From Chryseobacterium sp. PMSZPI (lineage in GTDB: Bacteria > Bacteroidota > Bacteroidia > Flavobacteriales > Weeksellaceae), in the NCBI RefSeq assembly GCF_002835665.1, contig NZ_PIZV01000040.1, forward strand, positions 1 to 33,204: a DNA stretch of 33,204 nucleotides, written 5' to 3'. The position numbers and the translations under genes were made by a program. The notes under the pieces were generated by a model, which saw nothing but the letters and a program-made list of their open reading frames with translations, was not told the DNA's origin and searched no databases. Shown one piece after another: positions 1 to 30,970 of this stretch (the first letter of the stretch is position 1; each line of letters starts with the position of its first letter).

Positions 1-99
1 AAATAAACCGACAACTATCTTATAATTTATTAATAATTTTATCCTATTAATCTGTAACGCTTATTTAGGACTAGTCAGATCTCAAAATGAGTGGATTTA

Positions 100-131
100 T
101 TTGTTATTGTGGATAACTTTTTGTATCTTTG
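100..131 (+). promoter_or_regulatory. Promoter for rpoBC
   Basis: TTTG at 100-103, a 20-bp spacer, and TATCTTTG at 124-131 match the Bacteroidota primary sigma consensus (TTTG about 19-20 bp before TAnnTTTG). The predicted start lies near 138. This would give rpoBC its own promoter in addition to any read-through from an upstream ribosomal operon. Confidence 0.7.
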
Positions 132-320
132 CCCCTCTTTTGGCGCGAAAAATTGTTTGTACATTTATAAAATACTGAAAATCAACTCTTTCATTGTGTA
201 AAGCATGGAAGGGATTTCCTGTTTATAAATATTGCGGTAATTCTGCCTCAAAAGTAAGAAAAATATTTTGCATTACGCTGTGAAAAGATATACCAGTGTT
301 GCAGTTAGGAATCAGACTGT

Positions 321-411
321 AAGAATAAAGAACAAAGAATAAAGACTATTTCTGATAGCGCCAAATATCTCCATGTCTTTTCTCTTTTCTCTTTTCTCTT
401 TTTTCTCTTCC
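321..411. repeat. Heptad inverted-repeat element before rpoB
   Basis: The left arm is four 7-bp units: AAGAATA (321-327), AAGAACA (328-334), AAGAATA (335-341), AAGACTA (342-348). The right arm is GTCTTTT (375-381), CTCTTTT three times (382-402), then TTCTCTT (403-409). The arms are broadly complementary, with an exact pairing of AAAGAC (341-346) to GTCTTT (375-380). It lies in the rpoB leader about 55 bases before the start codon. It shares the period and two-arm layout, but not the sequence, with the elements at 4284-4400 and 8683-8744. Confidence 0.7.
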
Positions 412-462
412 TGATATTTTTAAATGAATCAAAATATTTTTTAACCCTTTCTTAAAAGTTTT

Positions 463-3400
463 ATGAGTAAAACAAAATCAACAACTCAAGGAAATCCGAG
501 AATTAATTTCTCATCAGCGAAAGGAAAAATTGTTACTCCAGACTTCTTGGACATCCAAATTGAGTCTTTTAAAGAATTTTTCCAGCTTGATACACTTCCT
601 GAAGCCAGAAAGACAGAAGCTCTTTACAAGACTTTCCAAGAGAATTTCCCAATTACGGATTCAAGAAACCAATTCGTATTAGAATTCTTAGACTATCTGG
701 TAGATTCTCCACGTTATTCAATCGATGAGTGTGTGGAAAGAGGACTTACTTATTCAGTTCCTCTAAAAGCAAGACTTAAATTGTACTGTACTGACCCGGA
801 ACACGAAGATTTCCAAACAGTGGTTCAGGATGTATATTTAGGTCCGGTTCCTTATATGACTCCTTCTGGTTCATTCATTATCAATGGAGCAGAGCGTGTA
901 ATCGTAACTCAGTTACACAGATCTCCGGGTGTATTCTTCGGACAAACTTACCACGCTAACGGAACCAAACTTTACTATTCAAGAATTATCCCTTTCAAAG
1001 GATCTTGGATGGAATTTACAACGGATATCAACAGCGTAATGTACGCGTATATCGACCGTAAGAAAAAGTTACCATTAACAACTTTATTAAGAGCTATCGG
1101 TTACGAATCTGATAAGGATATCCTTCAGATCTTCGACCTTGCTGAAGAAGTGAAAGTTTCTAAAGCTGCCCTTAAAAAAGTGGAAGGGAGAACATTGGCT
1201 GCGAGAGTATTGAACACTTGGTTCGAAGACTTCGTAGACGAAGATACAGGTGAAGTAGTTTCTATCGAAAGAAACGAAATCATCTTAGATAGAGAGACTA
1301 TCCTTGAAAAAGAACACTTAGATCTTATCCTGGATGCTGGTGTGAAATCTATCCTGATTCACAAAGAAAACAGCAATGAATTCTCTATCATCCAGAATAC
1401 ATTACAAAAAGACCCTACAAACTCTGAAAAAGAAGCAGTAGAGTACATCTATCGTCAGTTAAGAAACGCAGATCCACCAGATGAGGAAACTGCAAGAGGA
1501 ATTATTGAAAAATTATTCTTCTCTGAGCAGAGATACTCTTTAGGTGAAGTAGGACGTTACAGACTAAACAAAAAGTTAGGTCTTAACATTCCAACTACAA
1601 CTGAAGTTCTTACAAAAGAAGATATTATTGCGATCGTAAGACACTTAATCGAGCTTGTAAACTCTAAAGCTGAGGTTGATGATATCGACCACTTATCAAA
1701 CAGAAGAATTAAAACTGTTGGTGAGCAATTAGCAGGACAGTTCGGAGTAGGTCTTTCAAGAATTGCAAGAACAATCAAGGAGAGAATGAACGTTAGAGAT
1801 AACGAAATCTTTACTCCACTTGACCTTGTTAACGCTAAGACTTTAACATCTGTAATCAACTCATTCTTCGGTACCAACCAGCTATCTCAGTTCATGGACC
1901 AAACCAACCCGCTTTCAGAAATTACGCACAAGCGTAGACTTTCTGCACTAGGGCCTGGAGGTTTATCAAGAGAAAGAGCAGGTTTCGAGGTTCGTGACGT
2001 TCACCATACTCACTACGGAAGAATTTGTCCGATTGAAACTCCGGAAGGACCAAACATCGGTTTGATTTCATCTTTAGGTATTTATGCAAAAATCAACAAC
2101 CTTGGTTTCATTGAAACTCCATATAGAAAAGTAGAAGATGGTAAGATTAATCTTAACGCTGATCCTATTTATCTGAATGCAGAAGATGAAGAAGACAAAG
2201 TAATTGCTCAGGCAAACGTTGAATTGAGTGATAATGGTGATTTCTTAACAGACAGAATTATTGCAAGATTAGATGGTGACTACCCAGTAGTTGAGCCAGC
2301 TCAGGTTAACCTTATCGACGTTGCACCTAACCAGATCTCTGGTATTTCTGCTTCATTGATTCCATTCTTGGAGCATGATGATGCGAACCGTGCATTGATG
2401 GGATCTAACATGATGCGTCAGGCCGTTCCTCTATTGAAGCCACAGGCTCCGGTTGTAGGTACAGGGCTTGAGCAGCAAGTTGCAAGAGACTCAAGAATCT
2501 TAATTAACGCAGAAGGTACAGGTACAGTACAGTACGTAGATGCTGATAAGATCACTATCAAATATGAAAGAAGTGAAGATGAGGATTTAGTACAATTCGA
2601 GTCTGCTACTAAAACATATAACCTTACTAAGTTTAGAAAAACTAACCAGAGTACAACCATTACCCTAAGACCAAACGTAAGAGTAGGTGATGTAGTGGAA
2701 AAAGGACAAGTACTTTGCGACGGTTATGCTACTGAAAAAGGAGAATTAGCTCTTGGTAGAAACTTAGTAGTAGCGTTCATGCCTTGGAAAGGATACAACT
2801 TTGAGGATGCAATCGTAATCAACGAAAAAGTTGTTCGTGAAGACTGGTTTACTTCAATCCACGTGGATGAATATTCACTGGAAGTTCGTGATACTAAATT
2901 AGGTATGGAAGAACTTACTGCTGATATTCCAAACGTTTCTGAAGAAGCTACTAAAGATCTTGACGAGAACGGTATGATCAGAATCGGTGCTGAAGTGAAG
3001 CCTGGAGATATCATGATTGGTAAAATTACTCCAAAAGGTGAATCTGACCCGACTCCTGAAGAAAAACTTCTTAGAGCAATCTTCGGTGATAAAGCTGGTG
3101 ATGTAAAAGATGCATCATTAAAAGCTGACTCTTCATTAAGAGGAGTTGTTATCAACAAGAAATTGTTCTCTAGAAACATTAAAGACAAAAAGAAAAGAAC
3201 TGAAGAAAAACTTAAACTTGAAGAAATTGAAAACACTTACAAGGCTAAGTTTGACGAGTTGAGAAACACTTTAATTGAAAAATTAAATACACTTGTAAGC
3301 GGGAAAACTTCTCAAGGGGTACAAAATGACCTTGATGAGGAAATCATCGGTAAAGGAGTGAAGTTCACTCACAAGTTATTAACTTCAGTTGAAGATTATG

Positions 3401-4284
3401 TAAACGTTAGCGGTTCAGACTGGACAGTAGACGCTGACAAGAATGAATTGATCAAACAATTGATTCACAATTACAAAATCAAATATAACGATATCCAGGG
3501 GGTTAAAAACCGTGAGAAATTCGCAATTTCAATCGGAGATGAGCTTCCGGCAGGTATCATGAAGTTGGCTAAAGTTTACATCGCTAAGAAACGTAAACTG
3601 AACGTAGGGGATAAAATGGCAGGACGTCACGGTAACAAAGGTATCGTATCAAGAATCGTTCGTGAAGAAGATATGCCATTCCTAGAAGACGGAACACCAG
3701 TAGATATCGTATTGAATCCACTAGGGGTACCTTCTCGTATGAACATCGGACAGATCTATGAAACAGTTCTTGGATGGGCTGGTCAGAAATTAGGAATGAA
3801 GTTCGCTACACCAATCTTCGACGGAGCAACTCTTGATCAGATTACTGAATACACTGAGAAAGCAGGTCTTCCTAAATTCGGTCACACTCACCTTTATGAT
3901 GGTGGTACCGGAGAAAGATTTACACAGGCAGCTACAGTGGGTGTTATCTACATGCTGAAACTAGGGCACATGGTTGATGATAAGATGCACGCACGTTCTA
4001 TTGGTCCTTACTCATTGATTACTCAACAGCCGTTAGGAGGTAAAGCTCAGTTCGGAGGTCAGAGATTCGGAGAGATGGAGGTTTGGGCACTTGAAGCATT
4101 CGGTGCATCGAATATCCTTAGAGAGATCCTTACTGTGAAATCGGATGACGTGATTGGTAGAGCAAAAACTTATGAAGCAATTGCTAAGGGTGAATCTATG
4201 CCTGAACCAGGTATTCCGGAATCATTCAACGTATTACTTCACGAGTTACAAGGTCTTGGATTAGACGTAAGATTGGAGGAGTAA
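463..4284 (+). CDS. rpoB: DNA-directed RNA polymerase subunit beta
   Basis: Beta subunit of the core RNA polymerase, which forms the catalytic cleft together with beta'. The protein has 1273 residues against 1342 in E. coli. The rifampicin-binding region is intact and wild type: FMDQ at 477-480 (D479 corresponds to E. coli D516), then HKRRLSALG with H489 and S494 (E. coli H526 and S531). The active-site segment [12 protein letters not shown] spans 1049-1060. A lysine/glutamate-rich, probably coiled-coil insertion (about 905-1000) sits just before the catalytic segment, as expected for the lineage-specific insertion there. The ATG at 463 gives the conserved N-terminus, and no Shine-Dalgarno sequence is present. 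rpoC follows after a 123-bp spacer that contains a heptad repeat element. Confidence 0.99.
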
Positions 4285-4400
4285 GATATCAGATGTCAGA
4301 CACAAGATGTCAGGCTACGACACTCTAAGAATTTTATAATCCTTGAATTTGGAATGATGATTTCGTCTGAAATCTGAAATCTGAAATCTAAAAATCTAAA
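4284..4400. repeat. Heptad inverted-repeat element between rpoB and rpoC
   Basis: The left arm starts on the last base of the rpoB stop codon and runs as 7-bp units: AGATATC, AGATGTC, AGACACA, AGATGTC, AGGCTAC (4284-4318). The right arm is TCTGAAA three times without interruption (4366-4386), followed by degenerate TCTAAAA-type units to 4400, eight bases before the rpoC ATG. Bases 4286-4301 and 4365-4380 are complementary at 14 of 16 positions, with a 63-nt loop. The stop and start codons closely bound the element, so it fills nearly the whole spacer. Confidence 0.85.
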
Positions 4401-4407
4401 AAAAATT

Positions 4408-7400
4408 ATGTCAAATAAAAATAAAACAAGTAGATTTAATAAAATAACCATCGGTTTAGCTTCACCGGAGTCTATTTTACAAGACTCGAGAGGGGAGGTT
4501 TTAAAACCGGAAACTATTAACTACAGAACTCACAAGCCTGAAAGAGATGGGCTATTTTGTGAGAAAATCTTTGGTCCTGTAAAGGATTACGAATGTGCTT
4601 GTGGTAAATACAAGAGAATTCGTTACAAAGGAATCGTTTGTGACCGTTGTGGAGTAGAAGTTACTGAGAAAAAAGTAAGAAGAGAGAGAATCGGGCACAT
4701 CAATCTTGTAGTTCCAATTGCTCACATTTGGTACTTCCGTTCTTTACCGAACAAAATCGGTTACCTTTTAGGTATCCCTTCCAAAAAGCTGGATATGATC
4801 ATCTACTACGAAAGATATGTAGTGATCCAGCAAGGTATTGCGAAAAAATTAGATGGTTCTGATTTTGAGCACATGGAATTCTTAACAGAAGAAGAGTATC
4901 TTGATATCATGGAAACTCTTCCTGTAGAAAACCAATATCTTGATGATTCTGATCCAAACAAATTCATCGCCAGAATGGGTGCTGAAGCTGTTGAAGATCT
5001 ATTAAAAAGAATTGATCTTGATGCATTATCTTTCGACTTGAGACACAAAGCTCACAACGAAGGTTCTAAGCAGAGAAGAACTGAGGCGTTAAAAAGATTG
5101 AACGTTGTAGAAGCATTAAGAGGTGCTAATACAAGAATGATCAACAAGCCTGAGTGGATGATCATGCGTGTACTTCCTGTTATCCCACCAGAATTAAGAC
5201 CATTAGTTCCATTGGATGGAGGACGTTTCGCAACTTCTGACTTGAATGACCTTTATAGAAGAGTTATCATCAGAAACAACCGTTTGAAAAGATTATTGGA
5301 GATCAAAGCTCCTGAAGTAATCTTGAGAAACGAGAAGCGTATGCTTCAGGAATCAGTAGATTCATTATTTGATAATACAAGAAAATCTTCTGCAGTAAAA
5401 TCTGAATCAAACAGACCATTGAAATCACTTTCTGATTCATTGAAAGGTAAGCAAGGTCGTTTCCGTCAGAACTTACTAGGGAAAAGGGTAGACTACTCTG
5501 CGCGTTCGGTAATTGTCGTAGGTCCAAACTTACAGCTTCACGAATGTGGTATCCCTAAAGATATGGCAGCTGAGCTTTACAAACCATTCATCATTAGAAA
5601 ACTAATCGAGAGAGGAATTGTAAAAACAGTAAAATCTGCGAAGAGAATTATTGATAGAAAAGAACCAGTAGTTTATGATATCCTGGAAAACGTGATGAAA
5701 GGTCACCCGGTACTATTGAACAGGGCACCTACGCTTCACAGATTGGGTATTCAGGCTTTCCAACCTAAAATGATCGAAGGTAAAGCTATCCAACTACACC
5801 CGTTAGTAACTACGGCCTTCAACGCCGATTTCGATGGTGACCAGATGGCGGTACACTTGCCGTTAGGACCGGAAGCGATCCTTGAAGCTCAGTTATTAAT
5901 GTTAGGTTCTCAAAACATTTTGAACCCAGCAAACGGTTCTCCAATTACGGTACCATCTCAGGACATGGTTCTTGGTCTTTATTTCATGACTAAAGAATTA
6001 AGCTCTACTGAGACGATGAAAGTAAAAGGAGAAGGTCTTGCTTTCTATTCTCCTGAAGAAGCGGAAATCGCTTATGCAGAAGGTAGAGTTTCATTAAATG
6101 CGAAGGTAAGATGTAGACTACCAATTAAAGAAGACGGACAAATCGTAACAAGATTGATCGAAACTTCTGTAGGTAGAATTCTATTCAACCAAATCGTACC
6201 TAAGCAAGTAGGATATATCAATGAACTTCTTACTAAGAAATCATTGAGAAACGTTATCGGTAAAATCCTTGCTGATACAGATTTCCCTACAACTGTGAAG
6301 TTCCTAGATGCAATGAAAGATCTAGGGTATTCAAATGCATTCAAAGGAGGTCTTTCGTTCTCATTAGGGGATATTGTAGTTCCTGTTGAGAAAAAGCAGA
6401 TGATTGCACAATCAATTGAAACTGTAGATGAAATTAGAGCTAACTATAACATGGGTCTAATTACAGATACAGAGCGTTATAACCAGGTAATCGACGTTTG
6501 GACAAACACCAACGCTGGATTAACTGAAATGATCATGAGCAGAATGAAAACTGACCAAGGTGGTTTCAACTCTGTATACATGATGCTTGACTCTGGAGCG
6601 AGGGGTTCTAAGGAACAGATCCGTCAGTTATCAGGGATGAGAGGTTTGATGGCGAAACCGCAAAAAGCTGGTTCTACCGGAGCGGAGATCATCGAAAACC
6701 CGATCCTTGCCAACTTTAAAGAAGGTCTTTCCATCCTAGAATACTTTATCTCTACCCACGGTGCTCGTAAAGGTCTTGCGGATACCGCTCTTAAAACTGC
6801 CGATGCTGGTTACCTAACCAGAAGATTGGTAGACGTTGCACAGGACGTTATCGTTACAGAAGATGACTGTGGAACTCTAAGAGGAACTGAAGTTACTGCA
6901 CTTAAGAAAAATGACGAGATCGTTGAAAGAATCTCTGAAAGAATCTTAGGTAGAGTATCTCTTCACAATGTTTACGATCCTGAAACTGATGAATTAATCA
7001 CTGAAGCAGATCAGGTAATCACTGAGCAACTAGCTAAGAGAATTGAAGAAGCAGGATTAGAAGCAGTTGAAGTACGTTCTCCACTTACTTGTGAAGCTAA
7101 GAAAGGTATCTGTGCGAAATGTTACGGTAGAAACTTAGCAACAGGTAAGATGATTCACATGGGTGAAGCGGTAGGTGTAATTGCAGCACAGTCAATTGGG
7201 GAGCCAGGTACTCAGCTTACGTTGAGAACCTTCCACCAAGGGGGTACTGCAGGTAACGTATCAGAAAACCCATCTATCGTTGCAAGAAGAGACGGTATCG
7301 TTGAAATGGATGAAGTAAGAACAATTACTTCTGAAGATGAAAATGGTAATACAGCTGAAGTTGTAGTTTCTCGTTCAACAGAATTTAGATTAGTTGCTGA

Positions 7401-8673
7401 TAACGATTCGAGAACTCCATTAATGGTAGCTAACGTACCTTACGGATCTATTCTATCTGTGAAACCAGGTGATAAAGTGAAGAAAGGGGATACGATCTGT
7501 AGATGGGATCCGTATAACGCGGTAATCATTGCTGAAACTTCAGGTAAGGTAGAATACGAGGATATCATCCAGGGTATTTCATTCCAACTTGAAATTGACG
7601 AACAAACAGGATTCGAAGAGAAAGTAATCTCTGAATCTAGAAATAAGAAAGCCGTACCTACCTTGAAGGTGGTAGACTCTAAAGGAGTTGAGCAAAAAGC
7701 TTACAACTTACCGGTAGGAGCCCACTTGATGGTTAACGATGGTGAGAAAATTAAGGCTGGTAAAGTCTTAATCAAAATCCCAAGAAAATCTGCAAAAGCA
7801 GGGGATATCACCGGAGGTCTTCCGAGAGTTACCGAATTATTTGAAGCAAGAAACCCTTCAAACCCAGCGGTTGTTACTGAAATCGACGGGGTAGTTTCTT
7901 ACGGAAAAATTAAGAGAGGTAACCGTGAACTTATTGTTGAGGCTAAAACTGGAGAAAGAAAAATTTATTTAGTTAAATTATCTAACCAGATCTTAGTACA
8001 GGAGAATGACTTCGTAAGAGCTGGTTCTCCACTTTCTGACGGTTCTATTACTCCGGAAGATATCTTAAGAATTAAAGGCCCAACAGCCGTTCAGGAATAC
8101 TTAGTAAATGAGATTCAGGAAGTTTACCGTCTACAAGGGGTAAAAATCGACGACAAGCACTTCGAAATCATCGTAAGACAGATGATGACAAAAGTATCTA
8201 TCGTGGATGGAGGTGATACTCAATTCCTTGAAGGAGCTCTTGAACACAAGTATGATTTCTTGGAAGAGAACAACAGAGTATTCGGTCTTAAAGTAGTAGT
8301 AGATGCTGGTGATTCTAAAGAATTCAAGCCAGGTCAGATGATTACTGCAAGAGAATTAAGAGATGAGAACTCTAAGTTGAGACGTGAAGATTTAGCTTTA
8401 GTAGATGTAAGAGAAGCTCTTCCAGCTACTGCAACTCCTGTATTACAAGGTATTACAAGAGCAGCACTTCAAACGAAGTCATTCATGTCTGCAGCATCAT
8501 TCCAGGAAACGACTAAGGTTCTTAACGAAGCTGCGGTTGCTGGTAAGATCGATGATCTTAATGGTCTTAAAGAAAATGTAATTGTAGGACACAGAATTCC
8601 TGCAGGTACAGGTCTTAAAGAGTATCAGAATGTTATCGTAGGTTCTAAGAAAGAATTCGAAGACCTTAACTAA
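4408..8673 (+). CDS. rpoC: DNA-directed RNA polymerase subunit beta'
   Basis: Catalytic beta' subunit of RNA polymerase, 1421 residues against 1407 in E. coli. The N-terminal zinc ribbon has C63, C65, C78 and C81. The magnesium-binding catalytic motif NADFDGDQ lies at 472-479, with aspartates 474, 476 and 478. The second zinc site is C821, C895, C902 and C905, just ahead of the [20 protein letters not shown] segment that leads into the trigger-loop region. All of these are offset by a constant seven residues from E. coli numbering up to that point, so the protein is collinear and complete. It is co-oriented with rpoB and probably co-transcribed. Confidence 0.99.
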
Positions 8674-8682
8674 AATTAATGA

Positions 8683-8744
8683 TTTGAAATTTGGGATTTG
8701 AAATTATTTTTATATTTTCACAATCTCAAATTTCGAATTTTAAA
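8683..8744. repeat. Heptad inverted-repeat element between rpoC and the DUF3467 gene
   Basis: The left arm is TTTGAAA, TTTGGGA, TTTGAAA (8683-8703). The right arm is TCTCAAA, TTTCGAA, TTTTAAA (8724-8744). Bases 8686-8698 pair with 8722-8734 in a 13-bp stem with one G-U pair and a 23-nt loop. There is no strong GC stem with a U-tract, so it does not look like an ordinary terminator. It is the third spacer in a row with this architecture. Confidence 0.8.
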
Positions 8745-8760
8745 AACATAATTTATAACA

Positions 8761-9066
8761 ATGGACAACAATCAAAATCCACAAGACGGAAACATCAACA
8801 TCGAATTAAACGAAATGGTAGCTGCTGGAATCTATGCTAACTTAGCATTGGTAAACCACTCTCCATCTGAATTTGTAGTAGACTTTATTCAGTTGATGCC
8901 AGGTGTTCAGCAAGCTAAAGTAAGATCAAGAGTAATTCTTGCTCCGCTTCACGCTAAAAGAGTATTAAACGCTCTTCAACAGAACATCGCTAACTACGAG
9001 CAACAGTTCGGAGAAATCAAAGAAGTTGAGCCTTTCGTATTAGGAGGAAACAACGTACAAGCTTAA
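8761..9066 (+). CDS. DUF3467 domain-containing protein
   Basis: A 101-residue cytosolic protein of the DUF3467 family, recognised by the central block YANLALVNHSPSEFVVDF followed by the LMPGVQQAKVRSRVIL and HAKRVLNAL segments. The family is widespread in Bacteroidota. I know of no established biochemical role. It lies 87 bp after rpoC, on the same strand and before the first strong terminator, so it is probably in the rpoBC transcript. This suggests a role connected with transcription or growth, but that is inference. No signal peptide or membrane segment is visible. Confidence 0.9.
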   Translation: MDNNQNPQDGNINIELNEMVAAGIYANLALVNHSPSEFVVDFIQLMPGVQQAKVRSRVILAPLHAKRVLNALQQNIANYEQQFGEIKEVEPFVLGGNNVQA

Positions 9067-9088
9067 GATTTTTCTTACAATAAATTAG

Positions 9089-9117
9089 AATGCCCTGGTT
9101 TTAACCAGGGCATTTTT
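9089..9117 (+). terminator. Rho-independent terminator of the rpoBC unit
   Basis: TGCCCTGG (9091-9098) pairs with CCAGGGCA (9105-9112), flanked by AA/TT pairs, and is followed by a run of six T. It lies 22 bases after the DUF3467 stop codon. Confidence 0.93.
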
Positions 9118-9334
9118 TATGATATGAAGTGTAATTTTAAATTTTTCATATTATTTGGGGCATATAAAAACTCACTAATGCGTTCATTTTTCGTTTCCTT
9201 TGCATATTTCGCAATTTGACATTTGATAAGTAAGCGGTAAATGTGATATGTGTAATTTTTGTATTTATAATGATTTTAATTATAAATTATCAATAATTTG
9301 TTTATTTTAATGAAAATTAATATTCTTTCTTGAT

Positions 9335-9342
9335 TACATTTG
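9335..9342 (+). promoter_or_regulatory. Promoter -7 element for first propeller gene
   Basis: TACATTTG fits TAnnTTTG and ends 19 bases before the ATG at 9362, so the leader would be only about 13 nt. No convincing -33 TTTG is found at the normal distance. The second paralog has a -7 element at nearly the same distance from its start, which supports both. Confidence 0.5.
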
Positions 9343-9361
9343 TGAAAAAAATTGAATGGAA

Positions 9362-12199
9362 ATGAAACTCTACCCAATCGCTGCGGTATTATTCTGCATG
9401 AATATGTATGCACAGCAGCAAAGCACCATTGAAACAAACCAAAAGCATCTGCAAGAGCTTTATGTTAAATATAATAAGGATCTTAAAAAAGTACATAAGA
9501 ATGCTAAAAAGGAGGGGATTCCACCTAATGCCTATAATGAAGAGGATTATAAAAGAACAATGGATCCTGTTACAGGAAGAACCAACTTTGAAGGACTTCT
9601 AAAAATAAATCAAGAGATTTTAGCAGGAAAGTACAAAGCCACCCAACCCATGTCTTTTATTTCTAATAATCAAGGGAGCTCTACAGGGAAAATAGTTAAC
9701 GAACCTTGGGTAGAAAGAGGGCCCTATAGTGTAGGAGGAAGAACAAGGGCTATTATGTATGATCCCAATGATGCGACGGGTAAAAGAGTTTTTGCAGGTG
9801 GAGTATCAGGAGGGTTATGGGTAAATCAGGATCCTTCAGTAGCTACCAATGAATGGATGCCTTTAAGTACATTCTGGGCGAATACTTCTGTTTCGTGTAT
9901 TACTTATGATCCCAATAACCCGCAAACTTTTTATGTAGGAACCGGAGAAGCTCCGACTACTGATGCAATAGGATCGGGTATTTGGAAAACAACAGACGGA
10001 GGAACAACATGGACACAAATTTTTACTATTCCGGTTACCTATTCTTCTAATGGGGTAAGAAATGGTAATTTCTATATTAATGATATTAAGGTTAGAAACA
10101 ATAATGGGGTTTCTGAAGTATATGCAGGAGTAAGTGGTTCCTATGTAGGAATTTCATTTAATGACGGATGGCAAGGATTAAGCCAGGCCGGATTATATAA
10201 ATCGACAGATGGAGGAGCAACCTTTACGAAAAACAGTAATTTACTGGCATTAAATACAACAACGAATACCACCAGTACTACAGGTTATTCTATTCAACAA
10301 ATAGAAATAGGAGCTGATAATTCTTTATGGGTTTCTACCAGAGCTTCAAGATTCTCCAATATTGATTCGGGAGGGAGGATCTTTAAATCTGCAGATGGAA
10401 ATACTTTCAATGAAGTATATAATGTATTAAATTCAGGTTCAAGAGTAAACTTTACACTTTCTAAGACAGATGCCAATAAAGTATATGCCTTTATGCAAGG
10501 AGCTGGGACAACTGAACCCATTAGAATTACAAAATCTACAGATGGCGGAGCAACATGGCAGGCAACTAATGATTCTTCACCAGTCATAACATTACCTACT
10601 GCTACAGATACAAGTATTCCTGCTAATGACTTTACAAGAGGGCAGTCTTTTTATGATCTTGTTATTAAAACTGATCCTTTGGATGACAATACTTTGTATA
10701 TTGGAGGTATTGATTTATTTAAGTCTACAAATGGCGGAGGAAGCTGGGCGCAAATTTCAAAATGGTCCAATAATAATAACATGGCAGCATTACAGGTTTC
10801 TACAGTACATGCAGATCAGCACGCGATAGTTTTCAATCCATATAATAATTATGCTACAGGCCAGATGCTATTTGGTAATGATGGTGGGATTTATTATGCC
10901 GCCAATAAAACGAATATTGGTTCTGTAGGTGGTTTTGCCGTAAGAAATACAAGGTATAATGTAACACAATTCTACAGTGCAACACTTAACCCTATAAAAA
11001 CACCCGCTAATGAAGAAATTTTAGCAGGAGCACAGGACAATGGTTCATGGTGGATGTATGGAGCACCTTTGGCCAGTAACTTTCTTCCAAATATTCAAAG
11101 TGCCAGTGGTGGAGACGGAATGATGACCGAATATGATGATCAGGATAACTATGAAATTGCAAGCTATGTTTATAATAGTCACTATTTACTGACTAACAAC
11201 ACTTATTATTTAATAAGCAGTGCTAACAGAAATTATGGACATTTTGTAAATGAAATAGCATTAGACAGAATAAACGATGTATTTTTCTCCTACCGTTCAG
11301 GATTATCTCTTTTCAGAACAAGTGGGCTTTCTGCAACGGCAACAAGTTTTACCAATAACACCGTTACAGTAGGAACAGCGCAAAATGGTGAACAAATTTC
11401 CTGGATGAAAGTTTCTCCGTATACAACTGCATCGTCAACTCTTTTTGTAGGAACAAACCTGGGAAGGTTCTTTAAAGTTACCAATGCAAATACGACCTCT
11501 TATTCTCCTACTTTACTGACATCACCGGCAGCAGGAACAATTTCTGATATCGAATTTGGAGCTAACGAAAATGAGATTCTTGTAACATTATCAAATTATA
11601 ATTTAACCAGTGTATTTTATTCTACAGATGGCGGAGCAACATGGCAAAACAAAGAAGGTAATCTTCCTGATATGCCTGTAAGAACTATTTTAAGAAATCC
11701 TGACGATCCCAATGAAGTATTGGTAGGAACAGAAATGGGAGTTTGGGGAACAACTGATTTCCTTTCCGCAGCACCTAATTGGTTTTCTGTAACAGGAAAT
11801 ATCGGAAATATAAAAATTACAAATTTGGATTACAGACCTTCTACTAAAACCGTATTAGCATGTTCTTATGGAAGGGGAGTGTGGACAACACAGAATACAA
11901 CAAGTTCTTTGTCTACAGTAGATACCAAATCCAGAAAGGATAAGAATATTATATATCCGAATCCTTCAAAAGGAATTTCACATTTGAAATTTGATACTGC
12001 TAAATACAGCAATGTAGATATTAGTATCGTTGATGGAGCAGGTAGACTGATATATACTAAGAAAAATGTAAAATCAGATGAAGAGTTTGGTCAAAGATTG
12101 GCGCCGGGAACTTATATACTAAAAGCCGAATCTAAAGGTGAAATAGTGTATAGTGGTAATTTCCTGGTATTAGGACGTGTTGGAGGTGATGATGATTAA
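9362..12199 (+). CDS. Secreted BNR/Asp-box beta-propeller protein, T9SS type A
   Basis: A 945-residue exported protein. I chose the ATG at 9362, six bases inside the longest frame, because it matches the start of the paralog and leaves a clean signal peptide (MKLYPIAAVLFCMNMYA, then Q). An N-terminal lysine-rich helical segment precedes GPYSVGGRTRAIMYDP, which opens a chain of BNR/Asp-box propeller repeats. At least six Asp boxes of the type STDGGATW are visible, plus the HADQHAIVFNP segment seen in sortilin- and GH74-like double propellers. The C-terminus has IIYPNPSKG and a beta-rich T9SS sorting domain ending near FLVLGR. The role is unknown; a glycan- or protein-binding propeller, or a hydrolase, is possible. 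It pairs with the paralog at 12558. Confidence 0.9.
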   Translation: MKLYPIAAVLFCMNMYAQQQSTIETNQKHLQELYVKYNKDLKKVHKNAKKEGIPPNAYNEEDYKRTMDPVTGRTNFEGLLKINQEILAGKYKATQPMSFISNNQGSSTGKIVNEPWVERGPYSVGGRTRAIMYDPNDATGKRVFAGGVSGGLWVNQDPSVATNEWMPLSTFWANTSVSCITYDPNNPQTFYVGTGEAPTTDAIGSGIWKTTDGGTTWTQIFTIPVTYSSNGVRNGNFYINDIKVRNNNGVSEVYAGVSGSYVGISFNDGWQGLSQAGLYKSTDGGATFTKNSNLLALNTTTNTTSTTGYSIQQIEIGADNSLWVSTRASRFSNIDSGGRIFKSADGNTFNEVYNVLNSGSRVNFTLSKTDANKVYAFMQGAGTTEPIRITKSTDGGATWQATNDSSPVITLPTATDTSIPANDFTRGQSFYDLVIKTDPLDDNTLYIGGIDLFKSTNGGGSWAQISKWSNNNNMAALQVSTVHADQHAIVFNPYNNYATGQMLFGNDGGIYYAANKTNIGSVGGFAVRNTRYNVTQFYSATLNPIKTPANEEILAGAQDNGSWWMYGAPLASNFLPNIQSASGGDGMMTEYDDQDNYEIASYVYNSHYLLTNNTYYLISSANRNYGHFVNEIALDRINDVFFSYRSGLSLFRTSGLSATATSFTNNTVTVGTAQNGEQISWMKVSPYTTASSTLFVGTNLGRFFKVTNANTTSYSPTLLTSPAAGTISDIEFGANENEILVTLSNYNLTSVFYSTDGGATWQNKEGNLPDMPVRTILRNPDDPNEVLVGTEMGVWGTTDFLSAAPNWFSVTGNIGNIKITNLDYRPSTKTVLACSYGRGVWTTQNTTSSLSTVDTKSRKDKNIIYPNPSKGISHLKFDTAKYSNVDISIVDGAGRLIYTKKNVKSDEEFGQRLAPGTYILKAESKGEIVYSGNFLVLGRVGGDDD

Positions 12200-30894: not shown

Positions 30895-30917
30895 TATAGA
30901 TTAAGATCAATATTTCA

Positions 30918-30960
30918 TAAAAAAGTTTCGGCGCACCAAAGGTGCGCCGAAACTTTTTTA
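30918..30960. terminator. Strong bidirectional terminator
   Basis: A perfect 20-bp stem: 30918-30937 pairs with 30941-30960 around the loop AAA, with GTTTCGGCGCACC as its GC-rich core and A and T tracts at the ends. It separates the phosphodiesterase gene from the convergent NmrA-like gene. Confidence 0.95.
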
Positions 30961-30970
30961 TGAAGAGCAA

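Follow-up and report, generated by a model that had tools for sequence, protein, structure and literature searches.

The rpoB-rpoC and rpoC-DUF3467 spacers of Chryseobacterium sp. PMSZPI are read here, with middling confidence, as palindromic heptad elements, meaning register-tolerant stem-loop spacers whose architecture would be selected and which, between rpoB and rpoC, would pass between species as short cassettes. The stretch analysed, hereafter the window, comprises 33,204 nucleotides (contig NZ_PIZV01000040.1, positions 1 to 33,204); it begins 5' of rpoB and continues with rpoC and then the DUF3467 gene. As an initial annotation of this DNA had described, each of the two spacers holds an array of 7-base units followed by a loop and a second array that is the approximate inverse of the first; the region 5' of rpoB, for which the same design had been claimed, is periodic only.

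Period 7 was measured as lag-7 identity and as a lag-7 array score, arm pairing was measured as an inverted-repeat score, and dinucleotide shuffles served as nulls. The rpoB-rpoC spacer (4285-4407) has a lag-7 identity of 0.47 compared to 0.29 in shuffles, with none of 500 as high, and an inverted-repeat score of 11 compared to 7.1±1.2 (60 shuffles, z 3.2); its best inverted core joins 4285-4301 with 4365-4381 through 15 Watson-Crick pairs in 17 positions. Inversion is strong in the rpoC-DUF3467 spacer (8674-8760; score 19 compared to 9.0±1.4, z 7.4), and the period there is weaker (lag-7 identity 0.50 compared to 0.36, p 0.010; longest lag-7 segment p 0.148). For the two arrays 5' of rpoB (321-345 and 375-411), lag-7 identity is 0.57 compared to 0.29, again with 0 of 500 shuffles as high. 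Period 7 is therefore above shuffles in each of the three spacers, as first proposed, and the inverted complementarity proposed alongside it stands for the second and third spacers but not for the first. The units had also been described as exactly 7 bp long; this spacing is kept strictly inside the arrays but is interrupted by indels (TCTAAAAATCT in the window), and by eye some versions in other species of the genus have 8-base units, namely part of class E (defined below) and some purM-purN spacers.

The further claim that the unit differs per spacer, so that these are not copies of one sequence, was borne out, as no second close copy of the rpoB-rpoC spacer was found in its own genome (40 of 52 candidates scored; genome 90% complete). 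The nearest near-full-length match is the nuoD-nuoE spacer, with 70% over positions 7-119 of 123, and the remaining matches are arm-length; TCTGAAA-type arm matches at other loci are read as a shared unit type. Names such as nuoD, nuoE, purM, purN, serC, serA, sufA and sufB were assigned by reading translations. A dispersed repeat copied between loci was considered and is ruled out for the full spacer, which exists as a single full copy. Terminators were likewise considered and rejected, all three spacers being without the GC-rich stem that is found elsewhere in the window (about 9089-9118 and 30914-30964). The second of these places, between convergent genes, holds a GC-rich, terminator-like hairpin of 24 bp. 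The covariance models of Rfam 15 gave no match in the window at gathering thresholds, and across positions 1-9400 the sub-threshold matches all fall within 9033-9220.

Comparison of the same junction between species was made over 64 genomes: the window, three named relatives and 60 congeners, the latter used out of 80 that were hand-picked among the matches listed in a set of 172 genomes with an rpoC match. The rpoB-rpoC gap is never empty, with 61 spacers of 71-165 bp and three genomes in which a gene is inserted. The inserted gene has 311 or 516 codons (L010, L141 and L151) and is the same gene in L141 and L151. The spacers fall into class A (TCTGAAA, 10 genomes), B (ATCTAAA, 19), C (8), D (ATTTGAA/TCTCAAA, 8) and E (AATCTTT, partly 8-base, 14), with two others; these are counted as at least four unlike classes because B and C have common ends. 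Length is near constant within a class across species, at 120-123 bp for A (n=10), 82-85 for B (n=19), 80-83 for C, 122-127 for D except for one of 71, and 101-114 for E, a pattern that does not fit hypermutable, phase-variable repeats. Period and self-complementarity had been said to persist while the unit changes, and this holds when the window's spacers are set side by side, and is still more striking when species are compared at one and the same spacer. The nuoD-nuoE spacer behaves similarly, with six unlike versions among 30 genomes and lag-7 p values of 0.007 or less in all six.

The distribution of the classes is poorly explained by descent. On a tree of rpoB+rpoC (62 of the 64 genomes; 10 A, 19 B, 8 C, 8 D, 14 E, one with the inserted gene and two others), 31 class changes are counted where the minimum is 6, and random labels give a mean of 36.9, with 2 of 200 shuffles as low as 31. 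Merging B and C leaves 26 changes (minimum 5; shuffled 31.3; 1 of 200 as low). With so many changes, the spacer is almost unlinked from its flanking genes. Among the 58 rows used for flank similarity (classes A-E without L066), pairs of one class resemble each other more chiefly over the final 60 bp of rpoB (ratio 0.55, 0 of 300 shuffles); the ratio is 1.05 at 60-120 bp away and 1.07 over the nearly invariant first 60 bp of rpoC, and a slight effect is seen 120-240 bp out on both sides (ratio 0.92; 1 and 7 of 300). A third-position test for a large transfer tract gave only a weak effect within 100 bp. The simplest reading of this whole-spacer replacement is that homologous recombination likely exchanges short cassettes.

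Heptad spacers are a genome-wide class that is also present in other Bacteroidota and is not special to rpoBC. Period-7 scans covered 833 kb of Chryseobacterium DNA (433 kb of the own genome and 20 kb from each of 20 other genomes of the genus, 400 kb) and 78 rpoB loci. In 241 intergenic stretches of the own genome (54.7 kb), the strongest excess among lags 2 to 30 is at lag 7 (z 12.0), the other raised lags being 2 (z 10.2), 3 (z 9.4), 6 (z 7.6) and 9 (z 6.4). Lag-7 arrays with a score of at least 10 number 21 in 16 spacers, one spacer having four, compared to 1.1 in shuffles; at this threshold lag 14 gives 10 compared to 0.9, lag 8 gives 4 compared to 1.1, and others give 1-4. At a score of at least 12 there are 13 lag-7 arrays compared to 0.1 in shuffles, with 0-2 at the other lags from 4 to 13 and five at lag 14. 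The 20 congeners have 10 lag-7 arrays compared to 0.5 (score of at least 10) and 6 compared to 0.0 (at least 12), and the coding DNA of both samples (687 kb) holds three of the higher-scoring arrays, compared to 13 and 6 in the intergenic DNA.

The joint signal is also in excess of chance, as had been expected: of 217 codirectional spacers with 40-200 bp, 14 hold an inverted repeat with lag-7 arms, compared to 1.25 for each shuffled set and to 1-2 cases at lags 4-6, five at lag 8 and three at lag 9. Among 109 other spacers there are 4, again compared to 1.25. Spacers with heptad hairpins include nuoD/nuoE, nuoG/nuoH, purD/guaA, purM/purN, serC/serA, sufA/sufB, mazG/aroA and purC/purF, so that a tie to the operon of RNA polymerase, as originally suggested, did not survive, and the focus on rpoBC is an accident of the window. 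The 5' arm is purine-rich in 18 of 23 periodic inverted repeats and also in 36 of 55 non-periodic ones, and this feature is not used as an argument. Several long, near-perfect arrays look freshly expanded, with ATCTTTT repeated nine times, ATAGTTG eight to nine times and TTATCTT six times, at loci L180 (+14972), L205 (+17237) and L188 (+540). A GGTTTAG array lies at 16583-16620 of L179; GGTTTAG is the unit of the plant telomere repeat, and the likeness is presumably due to chance. In the purM-purN spacers of L266 and similar genomes, inverted arrays of 8-base units (ACATTGNT-like) are present, and the L266 spacer extends to 565 bp with an extra reading frame behind the hairpin.

Outside the genus, a rpoB-rpoC spacer was obtained for 71 of the 78 rpoB loci (one of them Epilithonimonas), and 24 of these are 36 bp or shorter. 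Among the 47 Bacteroidota spacers of 35-250 bp, lag-7 p is below 0.05 in 15, inverted-repeat z is at least 3 in 18, and both signals (z of at least 2) are present in 8. Clear heptad spacers with unlike units are seen in Mucilaginibacter (L034), Pedobacter psychrotolerans (L072), Avrilella (L053) and a Cyclobacteriaceae metagenome-assembled genome (MAG; L077), and the spacer of Pedobacter ASV12 (L035) has 8-base units. Eleven loci, mostly from Flavobacteriales MAGs, held no period-7 array (0 compared to 0.2).

The units of unlike spacers have a core in common. Alignment of 51 arrays by strand and phase gave [AT]NARRTT with a score of 137.7 compared to 110.8±3.9 (z 7.0) when unit letters were permuted (highest of 60 permutations, 118.9), where both arms of one spacer may count separately. 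In 34 hairpins the mean complementarity is 14.9 as observed, 12.7 when the 7-base units of one arm are permuted and 7.9 in dinucleotide shuffles; permuted values exceed shuffled ones in 32 of 34, and observed values exceed the permuted mean in 30 of 34, the latter figure being biased upward as the hairpins were chosen for high scores. Since some two thirds of the complementarity excess is retained when the units of an arm are permuted, the pairing is register-tolerant, and a stem built of modular heptads would tolerate gain, loss and slipping of units. The same two results, the common core with its free positions and the complementarity that survives permutation, would also be expected of arrays of binding sites, in which a putative protein with a loose 7- to 8-base DNA or RNA site occupies direct and inverted arrays and complementarity arises as a by-product. 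Ribbon-helix-helix repressors bind contiguous repeats (omega, 7 bp; MetJ, 8 bp), and cold-shock domains bind about 7 nt. Conserved arms with freer loops and the lack of a sense-strand preference, described below, also fit such sites. This explanation is nevertheless considered unlikely, since one protein would need a very relaxed specificity to recognise units as unlike as those at different loci of a single genome, no candidate protein has been identified, and some of the arm pairing is specific to unit order, with the upward bias noted above. RbpB, an RNA-binding protein of Bacteroides, is a lead only as a reader of heptads, the available part of its description naming a 41-nt motif and no heptad (PMC11697453).

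The spacers show signs of constraint. Within classes they differ by 0.044-0.123 compared to 0.099-0.200 at third codon positions within 100 bp, and variation is lower in paired than in unpaired columns for 13 of 15 class alignments (5 of 6 and 8 of 9, the second set including one terminator-like purM-purN hairpin and two 8-base alignments). These observations bear on whether the arrays are a mutational product without function, which 7-base slippage and template switching at quasi-palindromes generate wherever DNA is free of coding constraint. Such an origin would account for the rarity of arrays in coding DNA, for arrays without an inverted partner, for the seemingly fresh expansions of ATCTTTT and ATAGTTG, and for the absence of a mismatch strand preference favouring the sense RNA. 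Heptameric repeats are over-represented in bacteria, and in the available part of one study slippage tied to the polymerase footprint is put forward for them as a conjecture only (PMC4692102). As a full explanation it is nonetheless doubtful, as it has to face spacer lengths near constant within classes across species, change slower than at third codon positions, more conserved paired columns, and a core common to unlike units that it does not predict. Compensated changes are also rare (6 of 181 variant types at paired positions), so that the hairpin-templated repair once proposed as a source of inverse copies is hardly visible within classes.

Several results weigh against palindromic heptad elements as the general account. 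The arms 5' of rpoB are no more complementary than chance (9 compared to 7.7±1.2 in shuffles), and of 24 spacer versions tested, inverted-repeat z is below 2 in L156 and L174 (rpoB-rpoC) and in L172 (rpoC-DUF3467). Array-bearing spacers have a significant inverted partner in 9 of 25 cases and a direct partner in 7 of 25, which is weaker than expected, and a preference for codirectional spacers is not clear (14 of 217 compared to 4 of 109). In purM-purN of 30 genomes, nine groups were distinguished; period 7 reaches p<0.01 in two of the nine, and several read as 8-base. Paired columns vary more than unpaired ones in class E and in one nuoD-nuoE group. The 181 variant types at paired positions comprise 39 G-T, 33 A-C, 6 compensated and 103 other; read in single genomes, the heptad hairpins of 28 codirectional spacers show 21 G-T compared to 41 A-C, and the sense fold is more stable than the antisense fold in 12 of the 28 and in 0 of 10 rpoB-rpoC representatives.

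The G-T and A-C counts also lowered the reading adopted at first, a general sense-RNA hairpin under base-pair selection, for which the expected excess of G-U was not found. An intercistronic RNA hairpin on the sense strand with classical base-pair selection, such as an attenuator or an RNA-processing site, is accordingly an improbable explanation for the class as a whole, given the near equality of G-T and A-C overall and a sense fold weaker than the antisense fold in all ten rpoB-rpoC representatives. Selection on sense RNA in general is not shown. The rpoC-DUF3467 spacer is an exception, for which part of the original suggestion of a selected RNA structure survives and an RNA-level role is likely. 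Its stem is kept in 36 aligned sequences of the 64 (near-duplicates and nine unlike versions left out), where one pair occurs as G-C in 17, G-U in 11 and A-U in 8 and one cell is broken at another pair; over 55 of the 64 rows, G-T variant types number 7 compared to 1 for A-C, and the sense fold is more stable in 10 of 11 representatives (four of the main class). Even here, 12 of 21 variant types are neither wobble nor compensated.

For palindromic heptad elements, a course of events can be proposed. Arrays would grow by slippage in 7-base steps, and a second, inverted array would then yield the predicted stem, in which the units of one arm have possible partners in most units of the opposite arm, such that the stem would survive gain, loss or reordering of units. 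Versions could be swapped as a cassette of about 0.1-0.2 kb by homologous recombination in the conserved ends of the genes. The stem-loop may be kept since a structured junction spacer is useful, for example as punctuation between cistrons, with its sequence nearly free. A broader and more tentative proposal is that exchangeable intercistronic cassettes of this kind occur throughout the phylum, with only the architecture selected (inverted heptad arrays that pair in many registers), the letters free, and versions traded via tracts of about 0.1-0.2 kb; if true, one of the cell's most conserved operons contains a joint that can be swapped freely. Should selection act on the fold and not on the sequence, a functional class of intergenic DNA in Bacteroidota would escape spacer alignments and motif searches, and if the arrays are mutational, they would uncover a step of 7 bases in the replication machinery. 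The rpoB-rpoC junction makes origin, exchange and function testable, as the same spacer is available over 64 genomes in at least four unlike versions with known flanks and clear controls.

The heptad region 5' of rpoB is the variable arm of a leader. About 300-335 bases upstream of rpoB align as a conserved leader in 60 of the 64 genomes (Chryseobacterium/Epilithonimonas); L141 and L151 have too little upstream sequence, and the TTTTGGC[GA]C box by which rows were cut is missing from L009 and L163, so that its conservation is partly due to this row selection. In the consensus fold, TTGGCGC near the start pairs with GCGCCAA, which lies in the loop separating the heptad arrays, and two further helices vary mainly by G-U or compensated changes. 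Support for the long-range pairing comes from L163, where TTTGGCAC stands with GTGCCAAA as a compensated change, and from L009 (C. piscicola), in which both boxes are lost. At the 5' end, in the window, the box TATCTTTG fits the Bacteroidota promoter consensus. The core motif of the leader, GTGAAAAGATATACCRGYGTTGCA, occurs with up to 3 mismatches in three named Bacteroidota loci out of 80, each of them from Chryseobacterium or Epilithonimonas, and no Rfam family matches the leader. These approximately 325 nt are a candidate cis-regulatory RNA of the RNA polymerase operon.

Table 1. Genes, spacer arrays and leader in the rpoBC part of the window.
Feature	Position	Strand	Remarks
rpoB leader	124..462	+	promoter-like box TATCTTTG at 124-131; TTTTGGCGC at 138-146 complementary to GCGCCAAA at 358-365; heptad arm inside
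5' heptad array, variable arm of rpoB leader	321..345	+	AAGAATA-like; pairing with 3' array not significant
3' heptad array, variable arm of rpoB leader	375..411	+	TCTTTTC
rpoB	463..4284	+	
Entire rpoB-rpoC spacer	4285..4407	+	123 bp; class A allele; interpreted as a short cassette that passes between species
5' array, rpoB-rpoC spacer	4285..4313	+	AGATGTC/AGACACA-like units; purine-rich arm directly after the rpoB stop codon
Loop, rpoB-rpoC spacer	4314..4364	.	in class A, unpaired columns vary 0.030 compared to 0.015 for paired
3' array, rpoB-rpoC spacer	4365..4393	+	three TCTGAAA and TCTAAAA (4366-4393); inverse of 5' array; 14 bp before rpoC start
rpoC	4408..8673	+	
5' arm, rpoC-DUF3467 hairpin	8682..8707	+	ATTTGAA-like units
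3' arm, rpoC-DUF3467 hairpin	8712..8738	+	
DUF3467 gene	8761..9066	+	PF11950

Repetitive extragenic palindromic (REP) elements, bacterial interspersed mosaic elements (BIME) and other dispersed intergenic palindromes are short, lie between codirectional genes and consist of one family sequence in many copies. The rpoB-rpoC spacer differs in being without a second close copy, only architecture and unit type being held in common with other loci. Closer in design are the GGGAATC/GGGANTN arrays of Xanthomonas, which are mostly intergenic and mostly between codirectional genes, have fixed and free unit positions, and in two genomes form 70 and 75 convergent pairs able to fold as stem-loops or cruciforms (PMC4692102). 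That system is, however, one G-rich unit family studied for quadruplexes, and in the available part of the paper no exchange of versions between species is described (PMC4692102); the arrays listed for Chryseobacterium are mostly AT-rich, with units that differ per locus. Direct TAACTGA repeats occur in Beggiatoaceae, Cyanobacteria and five Bacteroidetes, where they are intergenic and, in one genome, mostly just 5' of start codons, and the available text also mentions Elizabethkingia anophelis and Aequorivita with further heptamer repeats (PMC4679880). They differ in having one unit in direct orientation with one inverted case (PMC4679880), and none of the 51 arrays here matches TAACTGA.

Another likeness is to the P6b stem-loop of the group I intron in trnL (tRNA-Leu UAA) of Nostoc, which is built from degenerate TDNGATT or NNTGAGT heptads and their complement (PMC4476775). 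According to the available part of that study, two very different classes replace each other out of step with phylogeny, unit number is conserved within lineages of one type, and most variation lies in unpaired loops (PMC4476775). Arms of mutually complementary 7-base units are found likewise at rpoB-rpoC and rpoC-DUF3467, though not 5' of rpoB. Of the 51 arrays, 6 fit TDNGATT compared to 1.8 expected (p 0.001), and none fits NNTGAGT. P6b differs as a single site in a self-splicing cyanobacterial intron that needs RNA folding (PMC4476775); the heptads of Chryseobacterium are spread over many junctions of protein-coding genes, with numerous unit types in each genome, show no general RNA-level selection on base pairs, and lie in a window without an Rfam match at gathering thresholds. 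That no named element of this kind was known therefore holds for this group only, heptad stems and inverted heptad pairs having been described in the Nostoc and Xanthomonas work. Neither heptad hairpins of Chryseobacterium nor their exchange were described in the literature matches listed, most subscription journals being outside the search. Heptad arrays, even as inverted pairs, are thus of a known kind, and what appears new is the diversity of units, the setting in core operons, and the exchange as swappable spacers in Bacteroidota.

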